A stretch of DNA of 64,000 nucleotides. Origin: Thermoanaerobacterium sp. RBIITD (lineage in GTDB: Bacteria > Bacillota > Thermoanaerobacteria > Thermoanaerobacterales > Thermoanaerobacteraceae). Below the pieces are notes generated by a model. It was not told where the DNA came from. It saw only the letters and a program-made list of their open reading frames with translations, and searched no databases. The stretch is from assembly GCF_900205865.1 (NCBI RefSeq), contig NZ_LT906662.1:2493411-2557410 (forward strand), in the 5' to 3' direction. The position numbers and the translations under genes are program-made. This document shows, in pieces, positions 52,199 to 64,000 of this stretch (its first letter is position 1; every line of letters begins with the position of its first letter).

Positions 52199-52325
52199 CT
52201 TGTGAACTATAACAAAAAGTATTATAATTATAATGTAAAAAAAAAGGGATGAAGCTCCCTTATGAATTGCTGATAACGGCTGATGGCTTCTACGAGAAAG
52301 AGTAGATGGCTATCGGCCTTTTTAT
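52199..52325 (+). ncRNA. Fluoride (crcB) riboswitch before MutS-like pair 1
   Basis: Promoter TTGTGA-18-TATAAT (52199/52223). The aptamer has GGGATGAAGCTCCC (about 52246-52259) and GGCTGATGGCTTCTAC (about 52278-52293); GAAGC pairs with GCTTC to form the crcB pseudoknot, changed in concert with the common GGAGT/ACTCC. A terminator hairpin ending in GGCCTTTTTAT overlaps the 3' half, so ligand binding would control readthrough. The same element recurs at 55527. Confidence 0.82.
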
Positions 52326-52443
52326 ATGAGTTGGTTTCAAAGGGGAGATTTTTTATGTTGCTGAATTTATCTATATGTTACAAATGCGGAATATGTTGCA
52401 GTTTATTTGATACTATAAATACCCAAGGAGGTGTTATAATTAA

Positions 52444-53980
52444 ATGACTTTTCAAAGCATACTATTTAAAAATATTGAAAACAAGTCAAAAAAAAGAATT
52501 ATTTGAAGAGCCTGAATTTTTTGCGGATTTACATCTTGATCAGATTATAGAAGCTATAACATTTGGCAGAGGAGAATATAATCTAAAACCATTTTTTTAT
52601 ACTTTATTAAATGACATCAATGCAATCAGGTATCGTCAAGAAATAATGGAAGATCTTGAAAATAAAGTATTATTTGAGTATATAAAATCATTTGCTCAAA
52701 AATTTCATGAAATGCGTGAACATCTGGCACAGGCAGATAAACTTTACTATAAATACCAAAAGGAAAGTTGGTTTTTGGATGCAGTTGAAATTTATTGTGA
52801 AGCTGTAACTTGCTTAGCACGTGATTTAACACTTGTAGATTTAAAATCAACTGGTTTTCTTGCATTTCGCGAATATCTAGCGAAGTATGTTGAATCTGAA
52901 TCTTTTACTTCACTTTTGTCTGGGACAAAAAAGCTTAAAGCCGAATTATCATCTATAAAATATTGTTTGCTTATAAATGGCAACTGCATCAAGGTTTGTA
53001 AATATGAATCAGAAATTAATTACAGCGATATAGTTGAAAAAACATTTAAAAAATTCAAAGAAGGAGATGTGAAAGACTATCGGATGAAATTTTCCGAATA
53101 TACGGAAATGAACCATGTTGAAGCAAATATATTGGATTTTGTAGTTCAATTATATCCAGAAATATTTACAAATCTTGATAATTATTGCATAAAAAATATC
53201 AATTATATAGATGAAAAAATAAGTGTTTTTGATCGTGAAATACAATTTTATATGGCCTATTTAGAGTTTATATCGATGTTTAAACAAGTGGGATTAAAAT
53301 TTTGTTATCCGCAAATTTCCAGTACATGCAAGGAAGTTTATGATTATGAAAGTTTTGATTTGGCTTTAGCTAATAAACTTATATCTAATCAATCGCCAGT
53401 CGTCTTAAATGACTTTTATCTTAAAGGGAATGAAAGAATTTTCGTCGTATCTGGTCCTAATCAAGGTGGAAAAACAACTTTTGCTCGCACATTTGGGCAG
53501 GTACATTATTTGGCTAGTATAGGCTGTCCTGTCCCCGGTAGCGAGGCACAACTTTTCTTATTCGACAAGTTTTTTACACATTTTGAAAGAGAGGAAAACA
53601 TAAATGATCTTCATGGTAAATTAGAAGACGAATTGATTAGAATTCATAACATTTTTAGTAAATCTACACCAAATAGTATTATTATAATAAATGAAATATT
53701 TACTTCCACTACCTTAAAAGATGCAGTTTTTTTAAGCAAAAGGATAATGGATAAAATAATTAAATTGGATTTGCTTTGTGTTTGGGTAACATTTATAGAT
53801 GGATTGTCTTCTTATAGCGGAAAAACTGTAAATGTAGTTAGTACAGTAGTACCAGATAATCCAGCAGAAAGAACTTATAAAATTATAAGGAAGCCGGCTG
53901 ATGGGCTTTCATATGCTTTATCAATTGTGGAAAAATACAGACTCACGTATGACTATATAAAGGAGCGGATAAAATCATGA
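52444..53980 (+). pseudogene. MutS-family ATPase protein A, copy 1, N-terminally frameshifted at an A8 tract
   Basis: By comparison with copy 2 (55664) the start is ATG 52444 (MTFQSILF) after AAGGAGGTG, but the frame shifts in an eight-A run at 52488-52495. The remaining 500 residues are open (a TTG at 52475 could restart). The C-terminal half is a MutS ATPase domain with VSGPNQGGKTTFART (P-loop), INEIFTSTTLKDA (Walker B) and VWVTFIDGL. No mismatch-recognition domain I (F-x-E) is present. Located behind a fluoride riboswitch. Confidence 0.8.
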
Positions 53981-55397
53981 AGACATTTCTTATGTTTAGA
54001 AACCGTGATTTTGATTTAAAACAAGATTTACCATGGAATGAGCAAATATTGATACAGGATTTGGAATTAAAGACGCTTTTTGATACAATGGCACAAGGTG
54101 ACGAATTTTTGTTTAATGTTGCTAAAGAAGCTATTTTATCTAGCTTAAATGATATTGATGAAATACTTTACCGCCAGTATATTCTCAAGGATTGCCTTAA
54201 GAATCCTTCCGTTGTCAGAAATATTTATAATATTACAGTAGAAACGATCGAAAACGAGAGGAGAAATTTTTGGAGCATTTTTAGCAATTATTCAGGATCC
54301 ATATTGCATAGTTCAATTGAAATGATGCAGATGTATTTGGATATGCTAAAAAAATTAAGGAATGTTGCAGATGAGAATGCTCATAATTTTGAAACAGAAG
54401 GGTTTAAATCACTATTTTCAATGCTTAAAAAAGAATTGAATGATGAATATATATTGAAAGTGTAAAAGATCATTTAAAAGAGCTGAAATTTGATAATGGT
54501 GTACTAATAAGTGCAGAACTAGGAAAGGGCAATAAGGGAATTCATTATATTCTTCGTAAGTCAAAGGAGATTAAACAAGGCTTAATTGAGAGGATTTTTT
54601 CAAAAAAGCCACCCGCATTTACTTTTTACATCAGTGATCGGGATGAAAGCGGCATGAAAGCATTGTCAGAATTAAAAGATAAAGGGATAAATCTTGTAGC
54701 AAATGCGTTAGCACAATCTGCTGATCATATTAACGGCTTTTTTAATATGTTAAGGGCAGAATTGGCCTTTTATATTGGTTGTATCAAATTATATGAACAA
54801 CTCATTCAAAAAGGAGAACCAGTATGCTTTCCAGTACCTGTATCTCCTGATGAACGCAAGCTTTCTTTTAAGGGCTTATATGATGTTTGCTTAGCAATAA
54901 CTATGAAGCAGAAAATTGTAGCAAATGATTTGAATGCTAATGATAAGGATCTTTTTATTATAACTGGTGCTAATCAAGGCGGAAAAACCACTTTTTTAAG
55001 AAGTATTGGCTTAGCACAATTGATGATGCAATGTGGCATGTTTGTGCCAGCTGAAACATTCTGTTCAAATATCTGCAATGGTCTTTTTACTCATTATAAA
55101 CGGGAAGAAGATATTACAATGAAAAGCGGGAAACTTGATGAAGAACTTAGGAGAATGAGCGATATTGTAGATAATATAACATCAAATTCTACGATACTCT
55201 TTAATGAATCATTTGCGGCGACAAATGAAAGGGAGGGTTCGGAGATTTTTAGGCAAATAATAAGTGTATTATTAGAAAAACGAATAAAAATCATCTTTGT
55301 TACGCATTTATATGAACTCTCACATAGCTTATATGATAAAAAAATGGATAATGCAATTTTTTTAAGAGCAGAAAGGCAGAACACAATTTCGTATTGA
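53977..55397 (+). pseudogene. MutS-family ATPase protein B, copy 1, frameshifted and 3'-truncated
   Basis: Overlaps protein A by 4 bp (ATGA). Collinear with the intact copy at 57196: reading frame lost near 54460 by an extra TA in tatatattg, then regained as HLKELKFDNGVLISAELGK and continuing through ITGANQGGKTTFLRSIG and LFNESFAATNEREGSE. The end (AERQNTISY) lacks the last 30 residues of copy 2. Non-functional duplicate. Confidence 0.85.
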
Positions 55398-55502: not shown

Positions 55503-55607
55503 TATAATATATTTGACAATAAAAAAGAGGATGAAGCTCCCTCATTTAAACTGCTGAAAAGCTGATGGCTTCTACTAGTAGAGTAGATAGCTGTCGGCTT
55601 TTTAATT
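55503..55607 (+). ncRNA. Fluoride (crcB) riboswitch before MutS-like pair 2
   Basis: TATAAT at 55503 is followed by GAGGATGAAGCTCCCTC (55527-55543) and GCTGATGGCTTCTAC (55561-55575) in the crcB arrangement, with a terminator stem ending GTCGGCTTTTTAATTTTT. The aptamer matches the first copy in all core positions. Confidence 0.85.
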
Positions 55608-55663: not shown

Positions 55664-57199
55664 ATGACGTTTCAAAGTATCCTGTTTTTAAATACCAATG
55701 ATTTGTTAAATAAAGAGGTACCTAGTGAACCAGATTTTTTTCAGGATTTGAATATTGATCAAATAGTAGATGCTATAACATTTGGCAGGAGCGAATATAA
55801 CCTCAAACCATTTTTCTACAAAACGCCTAATGACATTGATACTATAAAATATCGTCAGGAAATAATGAGGGATCTTGAAGATAATAAACTTTTTGAGTGC
55901 ATAAAATCTTTTTCTGAGAAATTTCAACATATGCGTGAAAATCTGATGCAGGCAGATAAACTTTACTACAAGTATCAAAAAGAAAGATGGTTTTTAGATG
56001 CAGTTGATATTTATTGTGATGCTGTAGCTTCTCTAGCTAACGATTTAACGCTTATGGATTTAAAGTCTACTGGTTTTATTGCATTTCGAGAATATATCTT
56101 GAAATATGTTAAAAGCGATTCTTTTGTATCTTTGAATGAAGCAACAAAAAAGCTTAAAGACGATTTGTCATCTATAAAGTACAGTATACTTATAAGGGGA
56201 AACGGCATAAAAGTAAGCAAATACGAATCAGAGATAAATTACAGCGACATTGTGGAAGAAACTTTTAAGAAGTTTAAAGAAGGAGAAGCGAAAGATTACA
56301 GAAAGAAGTTTTCAGAGTATGCAGATATGAACCATGTGGAGGCAAACATTTTAGATTTGGTAGCTCAATTATACAAAGAAATATTTGCAGAGCTTGATGA
56401 TTACTGCCTTAAAAATAGCGATTACATTGATGATAAGATAGGCGCATTTGAACGAGAGGTACAGTTTTATATGTCGTATTTGGAGTTTATTTCAAGGTTC
56501 AAAGAGATAGGATTGGATTTCTGCTATCCACTTGTTGTCAGCGAATCTAAAGAAGTTTTTGATTATGGATGTTTTGACTTGGCTTTGGCCAATAAACTTA
56601 TTGCCAATAAATCGACAGTTGTCACAAACGATTTTTACCTAAGTGGCAAAGAGAGAATTTTCGTTGTATCTGGACCTAATCAAGGTGGGAAAACGACATT
56701 TGCTAGGACATTTGGGCAAGTTCATTATTTAGCAAGTATTGGGTGCCCTGTTCCAGGTTATAAAGCGCAGCTATTTTTATATGACAATATTTTTACACAC
56801 TTTGAAAGAGAGGAAGACGTAAATGACCTTCATAGCAAATTAGAAGATGAATTGATTAGAATTTACGATATCCTTTTAAAAGCTACATCAAATAGCATTG
56901 TTATATTGAATGAAATATTTACTTCTACTACATTAGAAGATGCGATCTTTCTCAGCAAAAAAATAATGGATAAGATAATAAAATTAGATTTGCTTTGTGT
57001 TTGGGTTACATTTATAGATGAATTATCCACTTATAGCGAAAAGACTGTAAGCGTAGTTAGTACAGTGGTACCAGACAATCCTGTACTTAGAACTTATAAG
57101 GTTGTAAGAAAACCGGCTGATGGATTATCTTATGCTATTACAATTGCGGAAAAATACAGACTTACGTACGACTATATAAAGGAGCGTGTAAAGCAATGA
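55664..57199 (+). CDS. MutS-family ATPase protein A, copy 2 (fluoride-switch controlled)
   Basis: 511 aa from ATG 55664 (MTFQSILFLN), after GGAGGTGCG; an in-frame ATG 51 bp upstream lacks an RBS. Residues 1-330 are a helical clamp/lever-like region, and 330-511 a MutS domain V: VSGPNQGGKTTFART (P-loop), LNEIFTSTTLEDA (Walker B) and the H-like VWVTFID. No F-x-E mismatch domain. Together with protein B, which starts inside its stop codon, it probably forms a heterodimer, since each has one ATPase domain and they are always paired. Fluoride-responsive MutS genes are known in Clostridia, but their job is not established. Confidence 0.85.
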   Translation: MTFQSILFLNTNDLLNKEVPSEPDFFQDLNIDQIVDAITFGRSEYNLKPFFYKTPNDIDTIKYRQEIMRDLEDNKLFECIKSFSEKFQHMRENLMQADKLYYKYQKERWFLDAVDIYCDAVASLANDLTLMDLKSTGFIAFREYILKYVKSDSFVSLNEATKKLKDDLSSIKYSILIRGNGIKVSKYESEINYSDIVEETFKKFKEGEAKDYRKKFSEYADMNHVEANILDLVAQLYKEIFAELDDYCLKNSDYIDDKIGAFEREVQFYMSYLEFISRFKEIGLDFCYPLVVSESKEVFDYGCFDLALANKLIANKSTVVTNDFYLSGKERIFVVSGPNQGGKTTFARTFGQVHYLASIGCPVPGYKAQLFLYDNIFTHFEREEDVNDLHSKLEDELIRIYDILLKATSNSIVILNEIFTSTTLEDAIFLSKKIMDKIIKLDLLCVWVTFIDELSTYSEKTVSVVSTVVPDNPVLRTYKVVRKPADGLSYAITIAEKYRLTYDYIKERVKQ

Positions 57200-58689
57200 A
57201 GACATTTCTATTATACAAAAATCGCGATTTTGATATGAAGCAGGAATTGCCTTGGAATGAACAGATGCTGATACAGGATTTAGGTTTGAATGTGGTTTTT
57301 GATGCTATGGCACAAGGTGATGAGTTTTTGTACGATGTAGCTTATAGAGTCATTCTAACAAGTCTAAATGATATTGATGAAATCCTTTATCGTCAAGATA
57401 TTCTCAGAGATTGTCTTAAGAATCCTTATGTCGTCAGAACCATTTATGGCATTGCAGTTGAAACAATAGAAAATGAAAAGAAAAATTTTTGGAGCATTTT
57501 TAGTAGCTACCCGTCATCAATTTTGCATAGCTCCATTGAACTAATGCACATGTATATTGATATGCTTAAAAAATTAAGAAACGTTGCGGAAGAAAATATT
57601 CATAATTTTGATTCTGATGGTTTTAAGTCGCTATTTTCAATGCTTCAAAAAGAATTGGATGATGGATATATTGAAACTGTGAAAAATCATTTGAAAGAGC
57701 TGAAATTTGATAATGGCGTACTAATAAGTGCAGAACTGGGAAAGGGAAATAAAGGAATTCACTATATTCTTCGTAAGTCAAAGGAGACTAAACAAGGCTT
57801 AATTGAGAGGATTTTTTCAAAAAAGACACCCGCATTTACTTTTTACATCAGTGATCGAGACGAAAGCGGTATGAAAGCATTATCAGAATTAAAAGATAGA
57901 GGCATAAACCTTGTAGCGAATGCTTTAGCGCAGTCTGCAGATCACATTAACGGCTTTTTTAAGATGCTTAGGACGGAATTAGCATTTTATATCGGTTGCA
58001 TTAATTTATATGAGCAACTTACGAAGATAGGTGAGACTATATGTTTTCCCGTGCCTTTATCTGCGGATGAACGGAAACACTCTTTTGTTGGTCTATATGA
58101 TATTAGTCTGTCTCTGACAATGAAACAGAAAGTAGTGGCAAATGATTTGAATGCGGACAAAAAAGACCTTTTTGTCATAACAGGAGCTAACCAAGGGGGA
58201 AAAACGACATTTTTAAGAAGCATTGGGCTGGCGCAGTTAATGATGCAGTGCGGGATGTTTGTGGCGGCAGAGAAATTTTCATCAAATATATGTATTGGCT
58301 TATTTACACACTTTAAAAGAGAAGAAGATGAAGAAATGAACAGCGGTAAATTAGACGAAGAATTAAGCAGGATGAGTGATATTGTTGATAATATAAAGCA
58401 AGACTCAATGATACTTTTTAATGAATCATTTGCAGCTACAAATGAAAGAGAGGGCTCAGAGATTTCAAGACAGATAATAAGCGCATTGCTGGAAGTCCGA
58501 GTAAAAATATTTTTTGTAACTCATCTTTATGAATTATCTCGCAGCTTGTATGATAAAAAAATGGACAATGCGATTTTTTTAAGAGCCGAAAGAAAGCCTA
58601 ATGGTGAAAGATCTTTTAAATTAGTTGAGGGTGAACCGCTTAAGACAAGCTATGGCGAAGATTTATACAAGAGAATATTCAGAGAATAA
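57196..58689 (+). CDS. MutS-family ATPase protein B, copy 2
   Basis: 497 aa; ATG overlaps the TGA of protein A by 4 bp. N-terminal half helical. A MutS domain V from about 300: ITGANQGGKTTFLRSIGLAQ (P-loop), FNESFAATNEREGSEI (Walker B/D region) and VTHLYELSRSLYD. The C-terminal tail (FKLVEGEPLKTSYGEDLYKR) is the typical MutS2/MutS end. The N-terminus is related to that of protein A (both begin with a helix bundle of the same length), so the pair arose by duplication. Likely partner of A in an ATPase clamp. Confidence 0.85.
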   Translation: MKTFLLYKNRDFDMKQELPWNEQMLIQDLGLNVVFDAMAQGDEFLYDVAYRVILTSLNDIDEILYRQDILRDCLKNPYVVRTIYGIAVETIENEKKNFWSIFSSYPSSILHSSIELMHMYIDMLKKLRNVAEENIHNFDSDGFKSLFSMLQKELDDGYIETVKNHLKELKFDNGVLISAELGKGNKGIHYILRKSKETKQGLIERIFSKKTPAFTFYISDRDESGMKALSELKDRGINLVANALAQSADHINGFFKMLRTELAFYIGCINLYEQLTKIGETICFPVPLSADERKHSFVGLYDISLSLTMKQKVVANDLNADKKDLFVITGANQGGKTTFLRSIGLAQLMMQCGMFVAAEKFSSNICIGLFTHFKREEDEEMNSGKLDEELSRMSDIVDNIKQDSMILFNESFAATNEREGSEISRQIISALLEVRVKIFFVTHLYELSRSLYDKKMDNAIFLRAERKPNGERSFKLVEGEPLKTSYGEDLYKRIFRE

Positions 58690-58724
58690 TAGTATTGTTT
58701 TTAGAATAGGAAGGTGTGGCCGTG

Positions 58725-59057
58725 ATGAAAAAAGTATCATTTGAAATAAGTGACGAACAAATCGAAGAAATAAAAGAATTAAAAGAGGATTTGGAAAGGG
58801 ACGGTTTCAGCAGTGATGACTGCTATAGAGCTATTTTTGAGATGGGAATAAAGGCATATTGGATGGAGCGGAAAAATCCTGATGATAAAGATATAAGAAA
58901 GCAGCTTATAATGTTGGCATCAAAGTATTCTGCGATGAGATTTAAATATTTCCAGCTAGTAAGAGATAATCAAACACTGGATATAAAATTGAAAGGGTAT
59001 GAAGCAGAAAACAATTATTTAAGAGGTCTTTCTGGCATAAGGACTGATGAAGAATGA
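58725..59057 (+). CDS. Hypothetical protein with ribbon-helix-helix-like start
   Basis: 110 aa from ATG 58725, after AGGAAGGTG. The first 60 residues (VSFEISDEQIEEIKELKEDL; FSSDDCYRAIFEMGIKAYWM) have a strand-helix-helix pattern as in MetJ/Arc DNA-binding proteins; the rest is a charged coiled coil. 36 bp after the MutS-like pair and overlapping the next gene, so probably the same operon. No firm assignment. Confidence 0.55.
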   Translation: MKKVSFEISDEQIEEIKELKEDLERDGFSSDDCYRAIFEMGIKAYWMERKNPDDKDIRKQLIMLASKYSAMRFKYFQLVRDNQTLDIKLKGYEAENNYLRGLSGIRTDEE

Positions 59058-59449
59058 GGTATATATGTCCTAACTGCTTTAAAATAGCAGACATTGGCGA
59101 TGAAAAGTGTCAAAAATGCGGGTATGATTTTAAAAATATTGTGAATGATGATTATAGTCGAAAACTTATAACGGCTTTAAATCATCCTGATTATAATGTT
59201 CAGTATATGGCAGCGAAAATTATTGGGGAACTTAAGATTAAAGAAGCAAAAAGTGCTTTAATAGAATTTCTTAAGAAGGATAAAAAAAATAGGGATCCAT
59301 ATATTGAACAAGCCATTGTAGCGGCATTAGGCGAAATAGGCGATAAAACTGCATACGACTATATTTACAACAATATAGATAATTTTTCAATTTTAACAAA
59401 GAACATCGCTTTAATTGCTTTAGAAAATATTAAATCAAGATTTAATTAA
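59054..59449 (+). CDS. Zinc-ribbon plus HEAT-repeat protein
   Basis: 131 aa; overlaps the previous gene by 4 bp (ATGA). Two CxxC pairs (CPNC at 5/8 and CQKC at 19/22) form a zinc ribbon; residues 38-128 make about three HEAT-like helical pairs (NVQYMAAKIIGELKIKEAKS; QAIVAALGEIGDKTAYDYI). Such proteins are scaffolds or adaptors. Its role in the MutS-like operon is unknown. Confidence 0.68.
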   Translation: MRYICPNCFKIADIGDEKCQKCGYDFKNIVNDDYSRKLITALNHPDYNVQYMAAKIIGELKIKEAKSALIEFLKKDKKNRDPYIEQAIVAALGEIGDKTAYDYIYNNIDNFSILTKNIALIALENIKSRFN

Positions 59450-59461
59450 GGAGGTAATAAA

Positions 59462-60649
59462 ATGGACAACAAAGAAAGACCAAATAAGAATACAGTCAAT
59501 AATATTAAAACATTGGGATGGGTTGCCTTTTTTGGCGGCTTGAGTCAAGACATGATACAGCCTATTTTGCCAACATTTTATACTCAGATATTGGGTTTAA
59601 GTAAAGAAACCGTAGGGTTAATTGAGGGAAGTGTAACAACAATTGTCAGTATTATGAGGATAGTTTCTGGCATAATATCTGACAAACTTGGAAAGAGAAA
59701 ATCAATCGTCTTTATAGGATATCTATTTTCTGCAATAGGAAGAATTTTTCTATCATTGACTAATGGTGCGGCAATGACGTTTGGATTGCGCTTTACTGAT
59801 GGCATTGGTAAAGGTTTAAAGGATGCGCCAAGAGATGCACTTGTTGCAAAGTCATCTGAAATGAAAAATATGGGCTATTCATTTGGATTTCAAAGAATGC
59901 TTGATACGTTAGGCTCATTTATAGGACCACTTATCACAACAGGGTTAATGGTTTTGCTAGCTAAATATATAGATGAAACGAAATACAGGATAATATTTTT
60001 AGTTGCAGGGCTTGTTGGCTTTATCACAATATTGCTTATTGGATTATTTATAGTTGAAAGAAAAGGGGAGAATATCAGTACACCATTTAAATTTGATTTT
60101 ACTATATTCAAAGGAAAATTTTTGTTGTTTTTTATAGTTATGCTCATATTTACACTTGGAAATAGCAGTGATGCATTTTTAATATTAAGAGCTCGTAGTG
60201 TAGGTGTAAGCTCAGCCATGATACCTATTATTATTGCTATGTTTAATCTTTTTTATGCTTTATTGTCTATACCGAGCGGAATGCTGTCTGACAAGATTGG
60301 GAGAGTTAATGTAATCAAAATCGGATGGTTAATTTATGCAGTTACGTACATTGGATTTGCATTAGCCAGGGTGCCTTGGCATATATGGGTTTTATATGCA
60401 ATTTACGGTGTTTATTATTCTACGACGGAAGGTGTAGCAAAGTCTCTTGTTGCACACCTTGTAGATGAAAATAGTAGAGGAACGGCTTTTGGATTATATA
60501 ATGCCTCTATTGGTATTCTTGCACTGCCTGCCAGTTTTATTGCTGGATATTTGTGGGATAAAGTCACACCCTCTGCACCATTCTATTTTGGTGCAATATG
60601 CTCATTTTTAGCCGTAATTCTTATAACAATGTTTAAAATAGAAAAATAA
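59462..60649 (+). CDS. MFS transporter (12 helices)
   Basis: 395 aa with twelve hydrophobic segments. The MFS signature between helices 2 and 3 is visible as GIISDKLGKRKSIVFIGY, and its half-repeat as GMLSDKIGRVNVIKIGW. FTDGIGKGLKDAPRDALVA is characteristic of a subgroup of efflux-type MFS proteins. RBS AAGGAGG. 12 bp behind the HEAT protein, so the whole run from riboswitch 2 may be one transcript. Possible efflux of fluoride-linked or toxic compounds is inference; known fluoride exporters are Fluc and CLC-F, not MFS. Confidence 0.85.
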   Translation: MDNKERPNKNTVNNIKTLGWVAFFGGLSQDMIQPILPTFYTQILGLSKETVGLIEGSVTTIVSIMRIVSGIISDKLGKRKSIVFIGYLFSAIGRIFLSLTNGAAMTFGLRFTDGIGKGLKDAPRDALVAKSSEMKNMGYSFGFQRMLDTLGSFIGPLITTGLMVLLAKYIDETKYRIIFLVAGLVGFITILLIGLFIVERKGENISTPFKFDFTIFKGKFLLFFIVMLIFTLGNSSDAFLILRARSVGVSSAMIPIIIAMFNLFYALLSIPSGMLSDKIGRVNVIKIGWLIYAVTYIGFALARVPWHIWVLYAIYGVYYSTTEGVAKSLVAHLVDENSRGTAFGLYNASIGILALPASFIAGYLWDKVTPSAPFYFGAICSFLAVILITMFKIEK

Positions 60650-60900
60650 ATTTTTTAATTTATTTTAAAAGTGCATATAAATTTTTAATAAATTACTTAT
60701 ATTTATGAATCGTAATATCGACTTAATTATATTAAGTTTATATTGCCAAGAATAATGGCTGATAGAACTTTAATGAATAATATTGAAATATAAGGTAAAT
60801 GGAAAATTAGTTAAGACCATAATGGTAAATCATACTTCAGTACCTAAATATGATAAATTCAACTTTAGGGAAAATACAGGAACAATAGAATATTTATAAT
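60650..60900. other. Gap with a possible gene relic
   Basis: A short open stretch near 60794-60898 reads KVNGKLVKTIMVNHTSVPKY but has no start, RBS or continuation. No supported gene. Confidence 0.35.
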
Positions 60901-60930
60901 AAAAAAGCATTGGTTACCCAATGCTTTTTT
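60901..60930 (-). terminator. Terminator of the DUF1540 gene (bidirectional)
   Basis: AAAAAAGCATTGG/CCAATGCTTTTTT with a 4-nt loop; also available to + strand transcripts. Confidence 0.88.
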
Positions 60931-60932
60931 AT

Positions 60933-61085
60933 TTATCTTGTTCTGAATGTTGTACATTCAGTTTCTGCACTTGTCTTTGCTGTTGGTGTTTTAGGATTTA
61001 CTTCTATTGATTGTGCATGGCATTTCATATCTTTCCAGTATGTGCAAGTATTAACTCCGCATTTAACTACGCTTTCCGCGTTCAT
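60933..61085 (-). CDS. DUF1540 small cysteine-rich protein (50 aa)
   Basis: Minus strand ATG 61085 after GGAGGTG. Reads SVVKCGVNTCTYWKDMKCHA then ECTTFRTR: four cysteines in the DUF1540 spacing V-x-C-x5-C-x-Y/W...C-x-A...C-x-T-F. These short metal-binding proteins are widespread in Clostridia and often sporulation- or metal-linked. It has its own terminator and lies divergent from the copper-type operon. Confidence 0.83.
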   Translation of the reverse strand: MNAESVVKCGVNTCTYWKDMKCHAQSIEVNPKTPTAKTSAETECTTFRTR

Positions 61086-61616: not shown

Positions 61617-61631
61617 TAGGAGATGAGCTAT

Positions 61632-62262
61632 ATGTCAGTAAAAGCAACTTTAAAGATATCTGGGATGTCCTGCGCATCATGTGCAGCTAAGATAGAAAAG
61701 GGCCTTAAGAATATGGATGGCATTAGTGAAGCAAATGTCAATTTAGCCATTGAAAAAGTGACGGTAACATATGACCCTGAAAAAGTTAATACAGATGATA
61801 TGACCAAAAAAATCGAGGATTTAGGATATGGAGTAATTAAAGAAAAAGTCGAACTAATACTTATAGGGATGTCATGTGCATCATGTGCAGCTAAGATAGA
61901 AAAAGCATTAAACAATTTACCCGGTATAAATAGAGCGACAGTTAATTTTGCAACTGAAACTGCAACTGTTGAATATGATTCAAGCAAAGTAGATGCCGCT
62001 ACTATGATAAAAGCTATTAGAAATATCGGTTATAATGCAAAAGAAAAGACAGAGATTGGAATAGATACAGAAAAAGAGGAAAGAGAAAAAACGATAAAAA
62101 CATTAAAAAAGTTAGTTATTATTTCAACTATATTAACAATACCATTACTTATATCAATGTTCGGGAGGATATTTAATTTTTCTGCAGGTATATTAGATAA
62201 TCCATGGGCTCAAATAGTAATATCTTTTCCAGTGCAATTTATTATTGGATTTAGTAGTGATA
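61632..62262 (+). pseudogene. copA: Copper-transporting P-type ATPase, N-terminal part, interrupted by a group II intron
   Basis: About 210 residues from ATG 61632 (9 nt after AGGAG; ATG 61623 abuts the RBS). Two heavy-metal domains each carry GMSCASCAAKIEK (near 10 and 80), then the first membrane helices (LVIISTILTIPLLISMF and PWAQIVISFPVQFIIGF). Homology stops at FIIGF, where a normal CopA continues with F-Y; the next bases belong to an antisense intron, giving a stop at 62265-62267. Phosphorylation (DKTGT) and CPC motifs are absent from the window. Confidence 0.87.
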
Positions 62263-64000
62263 GGTAAGGCTTTGAAGTTATCTTTGCCTTTTCCCCCACT
62301 CCAAACCGTACGTGAGACTTTCGCCTCATACGGCTTTCCAACGATTAGTCGCCTTTACGGGGACAGGCGTTAGTGTCGCCACTATTACCTGCTTGCAATA
62401 ATTCTCTGAATTTATTGATTTTCACTTTCTGTCTATCCGTATAGTTGCTTGGAATTGGACTTCCATGTACAATATGATGGCATTGTTCGCACAACCATGC
62501 TAGGTTAGGCACCTTGTTTACCTTATCAGATTTTAGTTGTGGTTGGATATGATGACATTCCATGTTGCATTTTTCCAGCCATTTTCCGCATATCCTGCAT
62601 TTGCCTTTATCACGATTATAGGCGTATTCTCTATTCATAAAATATTCAAAATTATATAGTTTATTATTTTTGTGGTGTATTAGAGTCTTTATATCGTATA
62701 GTGGCGGTCTATCCAAAGGTACTTTCTCTTTCTTTTTAAACTGCTTTAAATACAGGTTTCTGCCTTCTTCCGTATATGGCGTCATCTTTTGGTTGAACGG
62801 ATATTTTGTCCACTGGCTATGAGTGATAAATGTTTTGGTGATGCCAATGTACTGGTCTTTAACTTTGACCGCAAATGTTTTGGTCTTGTAGCCTTGATGT
62901 CTCTGCGGTCTGTTTGCCAATTTTTCCAGTTCAACTTGATGTTCCATATACGTTTTAGGATAGAGCTTTTGGAAAGTTCGGAATGCACAGCGATATATTT
63001 TATTGTCGATATATTGATAAGTGTTGCTGCATATTCCTGTTTTCCAATATTCTGCCATGCCTATAATCATAGAGTTAACCTTCTCAATTTGGATGGCTCT
63101 GTCAAGCTCTTTAGGTACATCTTTCAATTTACGTATCTCCTTATTGATTATTTTGACCTGCTCTTTGACTTTCTTGAAGTCAGGTCTTGATTTACCTACG
63201 AGCTTGGTAGGATGTGGATTGTCCGGAGATGGCCGCTTATAGTCCGCCTGTATAAGGAAGCCTAAAAATTTGACATATTTTTGTGTCATATCCGTTATGA
63301 TCGTCTTTTCTTCGGAAAGTTCAAGTTTAAGCTTATGCTTAAAGTATTTCCGGAGATACTTTAACAGTCTGTTGGCTTCTTTTTCAGTCGTTGTCATTAT
63401 TATCCAATCGTCAGCGTATCTGACTAGGTACTTTGGTATTGTGCCCTGATTCTTAAGTCTTGCTCTATCATGGTTTAGTCTTTGATATTGTTGCTTTGGT
63501 TCCTGATACATTCTACCAATGGTCCAGTCAAAATTGTTTAGATATATATTCGCTAAGATTGGTGATATAATACCACCTTGTGGCGTTCCTAGTTCTGTTA
63601 GGTGTTTAAGGTCTGTTTCTATATAACCAGCCTTGAGCATTTGTTTAATTAGCATCAATATTCGTTTATCATGTATACCTATGCGATAGCATTTGTTTAA
63701 TAATATGCGATGGTTGATGTTGTCAAAGCAACCTTTGATATCGCCTTCTATTGCATATTTAGGTACATCCTTTTTGGCCTTGTTGATGTTATTAATGATA
63801 TCAGCTATTGCATGTTTGGTAGCACGATAAGGTCTAAAACCATAACTGTGAGGATAAAATTTTGCCTCACAAACAGGTTCTATGACTATGTGGATACATT
63901 CCTGAATTATTCTGTCTAACATGGTAGGAATACCCAGCGGTCTCTTCTTGCCATTCTTTTTAGGAATATATATCCTTCTGACTGGTTGTGGCTGGTAGTT
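62263..64000 (-). mobile_element. Group II intron, 3' part, antisense to copA
   Basis: On the minus strand the reverse transcriptase gene is followed by domain V (GCCGTATGAGGCGAAAGTCT near 62312-62331, GTACGGTTT after it) and a domain VI-like stem (AAGGC...GCCTT), ending near ACCTAT at about 62263. The 5' end is beyond the window. In this orientation the intron cannot be spliced from copA mRNA. The exact junction is uncertain by a few bases. Confidence 0.8.
62345..64000 (-). CDS. ltrA: Group II intron reverse transcriptase/maturase/HNH endonuclease (partial 5')
   Basis: About 551 residues are inside the window; the N-terminus is missing. Reverse transcriptase blocks: [45 protein letters not shown] (RT catalytic Asp), [18 protein letters not shown], and [11 protein letters not shown] (YADD). 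Next comes the maturase X domain (near [12 protein letters not shown]). The C-terminal HNH endonuclease reads [20 protein letters not shown] then [15 protein letters not shown] with zinc cysteines. All domains are intact, so the intron could be mobile. Confidence 0.95.

Follow-up and report, generated by a model that had tools for sequence, protein, structure and literature searches.

The locus examined here raises the question of whether an MFS transporter of Thermoanaerobacterium sp. RBIITD belongs to a fluoride regulon. A 2024 review names two types of fluoride exporter, Fluc and CLC-F, and states that a bacterium typically has one or the other (PMC11139923). In the window, i.e., the whole analyzed stretch of 64,000 nucleotides, the MFS gene stands last in a string that begins behind a fluoride riboswitch with two MutS-like genes and continues with an RHH-like and a HEAT-repeat gene; the last three genes are called the trio below. 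We consider it likely that the trio is a real part of the fluoride regulon, that MutSA to MFS are read as one message under the switch in the leader, and that the MFS protein exports a stress solute.

Leader and gene string in the window

The string and its flanking signals comprise the following features.

55518..55581, plus strand: fluoride riboswitch aptamer (crcB motif, RF01734; cmscan 43.8 bits, gathering score 34, E 7.8e-9)
55555..55604, plus strand: terminator hairpin lying over the 3' half of the aptamer (RNA fold −27.6 kcal/mol, z −6.1, U-rich tail)
55664..57199, plus strand: MutSA, a short MutS-like ATPase (Pfam MutS_V, 74.5 bits)
57196..58689, plus strand: MutSB, a second short MutS-like ATPase (Pfam MutS_V, 76.4 bits)
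58690..58724, plus strand: gap of 35 nt between MutSB and the RHH-like gene, without a riboswitch by cmscan, unlike in genomes G016 and G021
58725..59057, plus strand: RHH-like small protein of 110 aa (ATG start; in-frame GTGs at 58722 and 58716)
59054..59449, plus strand: zinc-ribbon-like and HEAT-repeat protein (HEAT_2, 46 bits, cut-off 27.7)
59462..60649, plus strand: MFS transporter of the "F-MFS" clade, 395 aa (MFS_1, 146.9 bits, cut-off 33.4)
60898..60933, plus strand: probable intrinsic terminator of the gene string (16-pair stem, T-rich flank)

The successive gaps from MutSA to MFS measure −4, 35, −4, and 12 nt. The tight spacing that the first-pass annotation had described after MutSB, with a 4-nt overlap and a 12-nt gap, is borne out by the ORF coordinates; the gap behind MutSB is short as claimed, its length being 35 nt from the ATG at 58725 instead of 36 bp. 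The claim that no terminator occurs until about 60901 also held, the first convincing one after MutSB being the 16-pair stem at 60898 to 60933. Between the end of MutSB and 60898, a weak stem of 5 pairs (60531 to 60546) lies inside the MFS gene, and the terminator scan, which also missed the riboswitch's own terminator, yielded no convincing terminator between MutSA and 60898.

As to the proteins, the identity of the MFS transporter is established by the MFS_1 score given above. Of the proposed zinc-ribbon/HEAT label, the HEAT part stands, and the zinc ribbon scored below the cut-off (Zn_ribbon_3, 22.4 bits versus 27). The small ORF preceding it is present as described, but its RHH name could not be confirmed: the best Pfam and NCBIfam matches (E 0.056 and 0.059) were both to unrelated families, and AlphaFold modelled it poorly (pLDDT 51.3).

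The hairpin at 55555 to 55604 is expected to serve as a fluoride-ON expression platform. A second riboswitch of the window lies upstream (52236 to 52299; cmscan 41.5 bits, also above the gathering score of 34), and a terminator overlapping the aptamer was found in both leaders, with z values of −4.3 to −6.5 in three folds. Overall, six folds of five leaders gave z values of −3.1 to −6.5 relative to shuffles, specifically −6.5 for the other window leader, −3.2 and −4.3 for the trio leaders of G021 and G016, respectively, and −3.1 for the MFS leader of G022. The switching mechanism is established for this riboswitch class. Without fluoride, the leader (55518 to 55604) would form the terminator; with fluoride, the aptamer would keep the strand that the terminator requires, and the polymerase would read MutSA-MutSB-RHH-HEAT-MFS as one message ending near 60900. 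For a terminator layout like that of the window leader, Weinberg et al. expected ligand binding to raise expression, as far as the accessible text goes (2010; PMC2864571). Because the riboswitch nearest to the window MFS lies 3881 nt upstream on the same strand, co-transcription across these 3.9 kb is something we infer; likewise, fluoride control of the window MFS would follow from how closely the genes are spaced and from no better promoter or terminator having been found.

Two further observations concern the flanks of the string. Just upstream, at 52236 to 55397, lies a tandem paralogous riboswitch-MutSA-MutSB unit, whose MutSA is 76% identical to the other copy and whose MutSB is split into two ORFs. 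On the minus strand, a group II intron domain (62254 to 62338) and a reverse-transcriptase-like ORF (62345 to 63922, named by eye) adjoin the end of the N-terminal part of a copper-ATPase-like gene (61623 to 62267), the entire region covering 61623 to 63922.

Fluoride riboswitches at orthologous loci

Within the order of the window genome, 24 genomes were compared. The RHH-like protein had a match in 11 of them, the window genome included and two disrupted copies (G010 and G020) counted, and its relatives were found only in genera g1 and g3. In two genomes of the same genus as the window genome (G021 and G016), the trio stands directly behind its own fluoride riboswitch, the aptamer lying 0.8 kb ahead of MFS. 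The order riboswitch-DUF6062-RHH-like-HEAT-MFS occurs in six genomes of genus g3 (G004, G005, G006, G009, G010, and G011), with the RHH-like gene broken in G010; riboswitch-DUF6062-RHH-HEAT is kept in G013, where an MFS orthologue is absent. G001 shows riboswitch-DUF6062-MFS, and in G022 the MFS gene starts 45 nt after the riboswitch. Overall, 11 of the 13 MFS orthologues in the order (66 to 100% identity) have a same-strand riboswitch within 5 kb, and the remaining two, both in G018, start less than 400 nt from a contig end. The corresponding count for paralogous MFS loci in genomes of the order (35 to 44% identity) is 0 of 21.

Named genomes were scanned using only the MFS alignment, and the 26 loci obtained were searched for riboswitches and gene order. 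A locus was called linked if its upstream riboswitch shared strand and contig with MFS and all genes identified between the two ran on that strand. Seventeen are linked (L115, L116, L117, L119, L121, L123, L124, L125, L126, L127, L129, L132, L133, L134, L136, L137, and L138); the aptamers of L129 and L132, at 26.9 and 32.0 bits, fall short of the cut-off, yet they lie 57 and 88 nt before the MFS match. L120 is ambiguous, since its upstream riboswitch (33.5 bits) is below the cut-off and an opposite-strand ORF separates DUF190 from two MFS genes. Four loci lie at contig ends (L114, L118, L122, and L135). Four are unlinked, with no riboswitch upstream (L128, L130, L131, and L139; the riboswitch is downstream of MFS in L130 and on another contig in L139), and these speak against the fluoride-regulon reading, as do three MFS of other clades that lie within the distance rule applied to the controls below. 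Seven of the 26 loci (L114 to L119 and L124) are in genomes that also belong to the order set. With every locus counted a single time, the 13 of the order set, 19 others, and G340 make up 33 orthologue loci from Bacillota, Chloroflexota, Armatimonadota, and one Holophagaceae MAG, of which 24 are linked, 1 is ambiguous, 4 are unlinked, and 4 are at contig ends. Two broken orthologues within 5 kb of riboswitches (G362 and G379) are outside the 33, and two that look truncated (G011 and L127) are inside.

The gene orders differ widely. Nothing intervenes between riboswitch and MFS in eight loci (G022, L123, L125, L126, L129, L132, L133, and L138). Elsewhere we found riboswitch-HEAT-MFS (L127), riboswitch-enolase-DUF190-MFS (L121), riboswitch-CrcB-DUF190-MFS (L137), riboswitch-Na/H exchanger-Usp-enolase-MFS (L134), and riboswitch-Na/H exchanger-Usp-dynamin-HEAT-MFS (G340), with several hundred nucleotides from the riboswitch to the next identified gene in L134 and L137. 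A Chloroflexota MAG (L136) has riboswitch-MutSA-MutSB-MFS, the same logic as the window. The HEAT_2 protein adjoins MFS in L127, L170, and L172 as well. Because the linkage recurs in differing gene orders, fluoride control of the F-MFS family is well supported by comparative genomics. The earlier proposal that the MFS gene may be under fluoride control is supported by orthologues standing behind fluoride riboswitches in many gene orders, eight of them directly, and this linkage backs it better than the gene spacing in the window does. The repeated first or near-first position of one MFS clade after fluoride riboswitches, seen in several phyla, suggests that a step of fluoride tolerance has been overlooked; what is exported may be fluoride, a fluoride complex, or an acid accumulating when enolase is blocked.

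For control MFS proteins, linkage meant a same-strand riboswitch within 5 kb; the riboswitch searches scored 98 to 150 candidates per genome, and up to 4 (Bacillota) or up to 6 (Chloroflexota) MFS candidates were scored per genome, further MFS existing in each case. Among 398 Bacillota genomes, MFS profile matches scored either above 678 or below 400 bits, the lower group including the broken orthologues G362 and G379. Matches occurred in 71 of the 398 genomes; 40 of these were scanned for riboswitches, 7 more belong to the order set, and 24 were left out. The 40 scanned genomes (without G023) held 43 matches, which after subtraction of 4 intact or broken orthologues leave 39 controls, 2 of them within the 5-kb rule (G195 and G317). 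Specifically, G195 (L173, 3378 to 5491) carries a genuine riboswitch-CrcB-DUF190-MFS order with an MFS of a third clade, and since this is another clade, MFS genes seem to have joined fluoride regulons more than once. G317 is doubtful, with a riboswitch of 25.7 bits and opposite-strand genes in between. In 301 Chloroflexota genomes, an F-MFS orthologue was found only in G036 and G033, both already counted, and none of 37 other MFS had a riboswitch within 5 kb, although two have one on their contig at a distance of over 1 Mb. Another 10 MFS were compared in the 17 genomes in which the MFS and riboswitches of the orthologue loci were placed on contigs, and 1 of them fell within the rule (G026, 4.6 kb downstream of a riboswitch on the L121 contig, by distance alone); one of the 10, in G027 (an assembly identical to G044), is counted in the 39 as well. 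Fisher's P for riboswitch linkage was 2.7e-7, with shared ancestry ignored.

These controls bear on the reading that MFS is linked merely by its neighbourhood in fluoride islands and is under no functional control, which we regard as highly improbable. Several riboswitches do occur together in L074, L123, and L138, and in G195, G317, and G026 a riboswitch is found less than 5 kb from an MFS gene of another clade. Mere proximity, however, fits poorly with an MFS gene that is first behind the riboswitch in eight loci and elsewhere follows widely varying genes, and with the 0 of 21 paralogous MFS in the order that are linked.

Some observations on fluoride loci of the order are recorded here in their own right. 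In G004 (L009, 2511 to 3247), group II intron parts separate the fluoride riboswitch from the DUF6062-RHH-HEAT-MFS genes. G021 (L074, 2967 to 14725) has a fluoride island with four riboswitches and the units MutS pair, Na/H exchanger-Usp-dynamin-like, enolase-second MFS, and RHH-HEAT-MFS, the riboswitch before the MutS pair scoring 33.5 bits, just under the cut-off. Paired same-strand riboswitches, 52 to 71 nt apart, precede Na/H exchanger genes and may be double switches (G010:C17:73802-73976, G009:C33:15557-15747, G006:C1:1687117-1687307, and G018:C34:1807-1979); three of these four pairs have one member that scores under the cut-off.

Proposed origin of the fused arrangement

The arrangement of the window looks secondary, the trio having apparently lost its private riboswitch and become joined to the MutS operon. 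The order in G016 is MutSB, dynamin-like gene, riboswitch, trio. The MutSB/RHH junction without riboswitch is common to the window, G020, and G019, as judged by pairwise alignments. G020 has nearly the same junction, with a frameshifted start of the RHH-like gene and then a remnant reading like the tail of MFS; in G019, the RHH-like start alone remains of the trio. All three ORFs of the trio are open in the window. The simplest reading of these sequences would be that a deletion between MutSB and the trio removed the trio's own switch and that the trio was later lost in two lineages. The ancestral state would then be the trio, or MFS alone, with a fluoride riboswitch of its own; in the window lineage that switch, together with the dynamin-like gene if G016 represents the earlier order, would have disappeared, resulting in fusion of the trio to the MutS operon.

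Such a history could also mean that the trio now uses a constitutive promoter of its own in or near the end of MutSB and that the window MFS is no longer fluoride-controlled after the riboswitch was lost. We think this unlikely. It draws on the trio riboswitch missing in the window and present in G016 and G021, on the decay of the fused trio in G019 and G020, and on two 9/12 promoter-like matches ending at 58690 and 58707. Promoter-like matches are, however, no commoner than in shuffles (16 over 58600 to 60950 versus 13.9 ± 4.0), and because they are at chance level, this consensus-type scan is uninformative on co-transcription and could have missed an internal promoter. The independent riboswitch-MutSA-MutSB-MFS order in L136 further shows that the pairing of MutS genes with MFS recurs.

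That the window trio is a passing relic, fused by deletion to the MutS operon and heading for loss, is distinctly unlikely in our judgment. Two of the three genomes with the fused junction retain only trio fragments, as expected of such a relic; against this stand the open ORFs of the window and the low dN/dS values of the trio relative to G021 and G016 (0.04 to 0.14), a divergence that is partly older than the fusion. Specifically, these values are 0.07 to 0.09 for MFS, 0.04 to 0.05 for the RHH-like gene, and 0.10 to 0.14 for HEAT; relative to G006, they are 0.06 for MFS and 0.28 for HEAT, the RHH-like gene being saturated.

The MFS protein and its putative cargo

In a tree of 59 proteins built by a quick method, the F-MFS proteins form a single clade of 25 (SH-aLRT 100), of which 18 were labelled as linked; in these labels L120 was taken as linked and L134 as unlinked, later revised to ambiguous and linked, respectively. 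AlphaFold gave a confident MFS model (pLDDT 86.8), and the predicted fold is NorA-like: by sequence profile and fold, NorA was the best PDB match, with 22% identity and a TM score of 0.81. Residues G151, G155, and P156 (GxxxGP, TM5), which we take to be antiporter motif C, are invariant in 23 of 23 F-MFS. Among the residues that at least 22 of 23 F-MFS share and that none of 28 paralogues has are A22, G25, G26, Q29, D30, and Y40 (first helix), K120-D121 (helix 4 of the model, 103 to 131), Q144, and S152. A polar core of E55, D74, R110, K117, D125, D148, N234, D277, and R281 is also present in 28 of 28 paralogues.

F-MFS is thus similar to the NorA/DHA1-type drug:H+ antiporters in fold and GxxxGP motif, but it differs from them as a distinct clade with its own residues and fluoride-linked genes, and we know of no drug phenotype for it. 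From the predicted fold and the antiporter-type motif, we infer that F-MFS is a proton-coupled exporter, which would probably use the proton gradient to expel a solute that is harmful in fluoride stress. The likeliest solute would be an acid or anion accumulating when enolase and other metal-dependent enzymes are inhibited; fluoride or a metal-fluoride complex would be less likely.

Membership in the two established exporter families was considered and rejected. No CRCB domain was found in the protein by Pfam, in which MFS-type families alone matched at E ≤ 0.1, and it was on this account dismissed as a Fluc/CrcB member; assignment to CLC-F was dismissed because no CLC family occurred among the 4 Pfam matches and the best 25 of 36 NCBIfam matches. 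Like Fluc/CrcB, it is a membrane protein encoded behind fluoride riboswitches, in this genome included, but it is a 395-aa carrier with an MFS fold, whereas CrcB is small. With the CLC-F F−/H+ antiporters it shares riboswitch control, which they show in many bacteria, and the expected proton coupling of an MFS antiporter, but it differs in superfamily and in the lack of any CLC match.

A fairly unlikely alternative is that the MFS protein represents a third class of fluoride exporter beside Fluc and CLC-F, moving F−, HF, or a metal-fluoride complex. Its position as first gene behind the riboswitch in eight loci would suit such a function, as would the residues in TM1 and TM4 that are fixed in the clade and absent from paralogues. 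We hold it to be fairly unlikely that F-MFS is an unrecognized third class of fluoride-stress transporter working by proton antiport of fluoride, HF, or a metal-fluoride complex, and just as unlikely that the TM1 sequence W-V-A-F-F-G-G-x-x-Q-D and the K-D pair of TM4 would be counterparts of the fluoride-specific residues of CLC-F. The best fold matches, in contrast, are drug and metabolite carriers of the MFS, and the gene is frequently accompanied by genes for enolase, Usp, an Na/H exchanger, or CrcB and does not take the place of an exporter. Moreover, a third riboswitch of the genome, at 1477765, directly precedes two CrcB genes, so that the cell also has a fluoride-linked exporter of the Fluc type. 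Because of this riboswitch-linked pair, and because many fluoride-regulon proteins are not exporters, fluoride control does not make the MFS protein a fluoride exporter; fluoride export by it is possible and not favored. Export of a stress metabolite is the preferred reading, and the F-MFS family, as its linkage suggests, probably aids survival in fluoride, the cargo of the carrier being putative. With its diagnostic residues and its short riboswitch-MFS loci, the family lends itself to a direct test of this role.

The company of enolase, Usp, Na/H exchanger, and CrcB means that the MFS fits a general mitigation set like the FRM operon of Enterobacter cloacae, in which pyrophosphatase, Usp, enolase, CrcB, and others were found by experiment to be transcribed together on fluoride (PMC5533749). 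Genes for mutS in the context of the fluoride (crcB) riboswitch had already been named by Weinberg et al. in the available part of their paper (2010; PMC2864571). The window thus resembles known crcB regulons in its riboswitch with overlapping terminator, its mutS genes, and its putative multi-gene mitigation operon, and differs from them in the recurrent MFS clade and, in some taxa, the HEAT partner. The term "MFS" has 0 occurrences in the accessible text of the E. cloacae paper (PMC5533749), and no MFS is named in that of Weinberg et al. (PMC2864571). More broadly, the titles and abstract openings listed gave no MFS in a fluoride riboswitch regulon, an earlier mention being possible. The likeliest place for one would be Baker et al. 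2012.

A second MFS family, 23 to 25% identical to the first where measured, occurs beside or near it in L074 (11452 to 12639), L120, L125, L135, L136, and L172, and is represented in L135 by fragments only.
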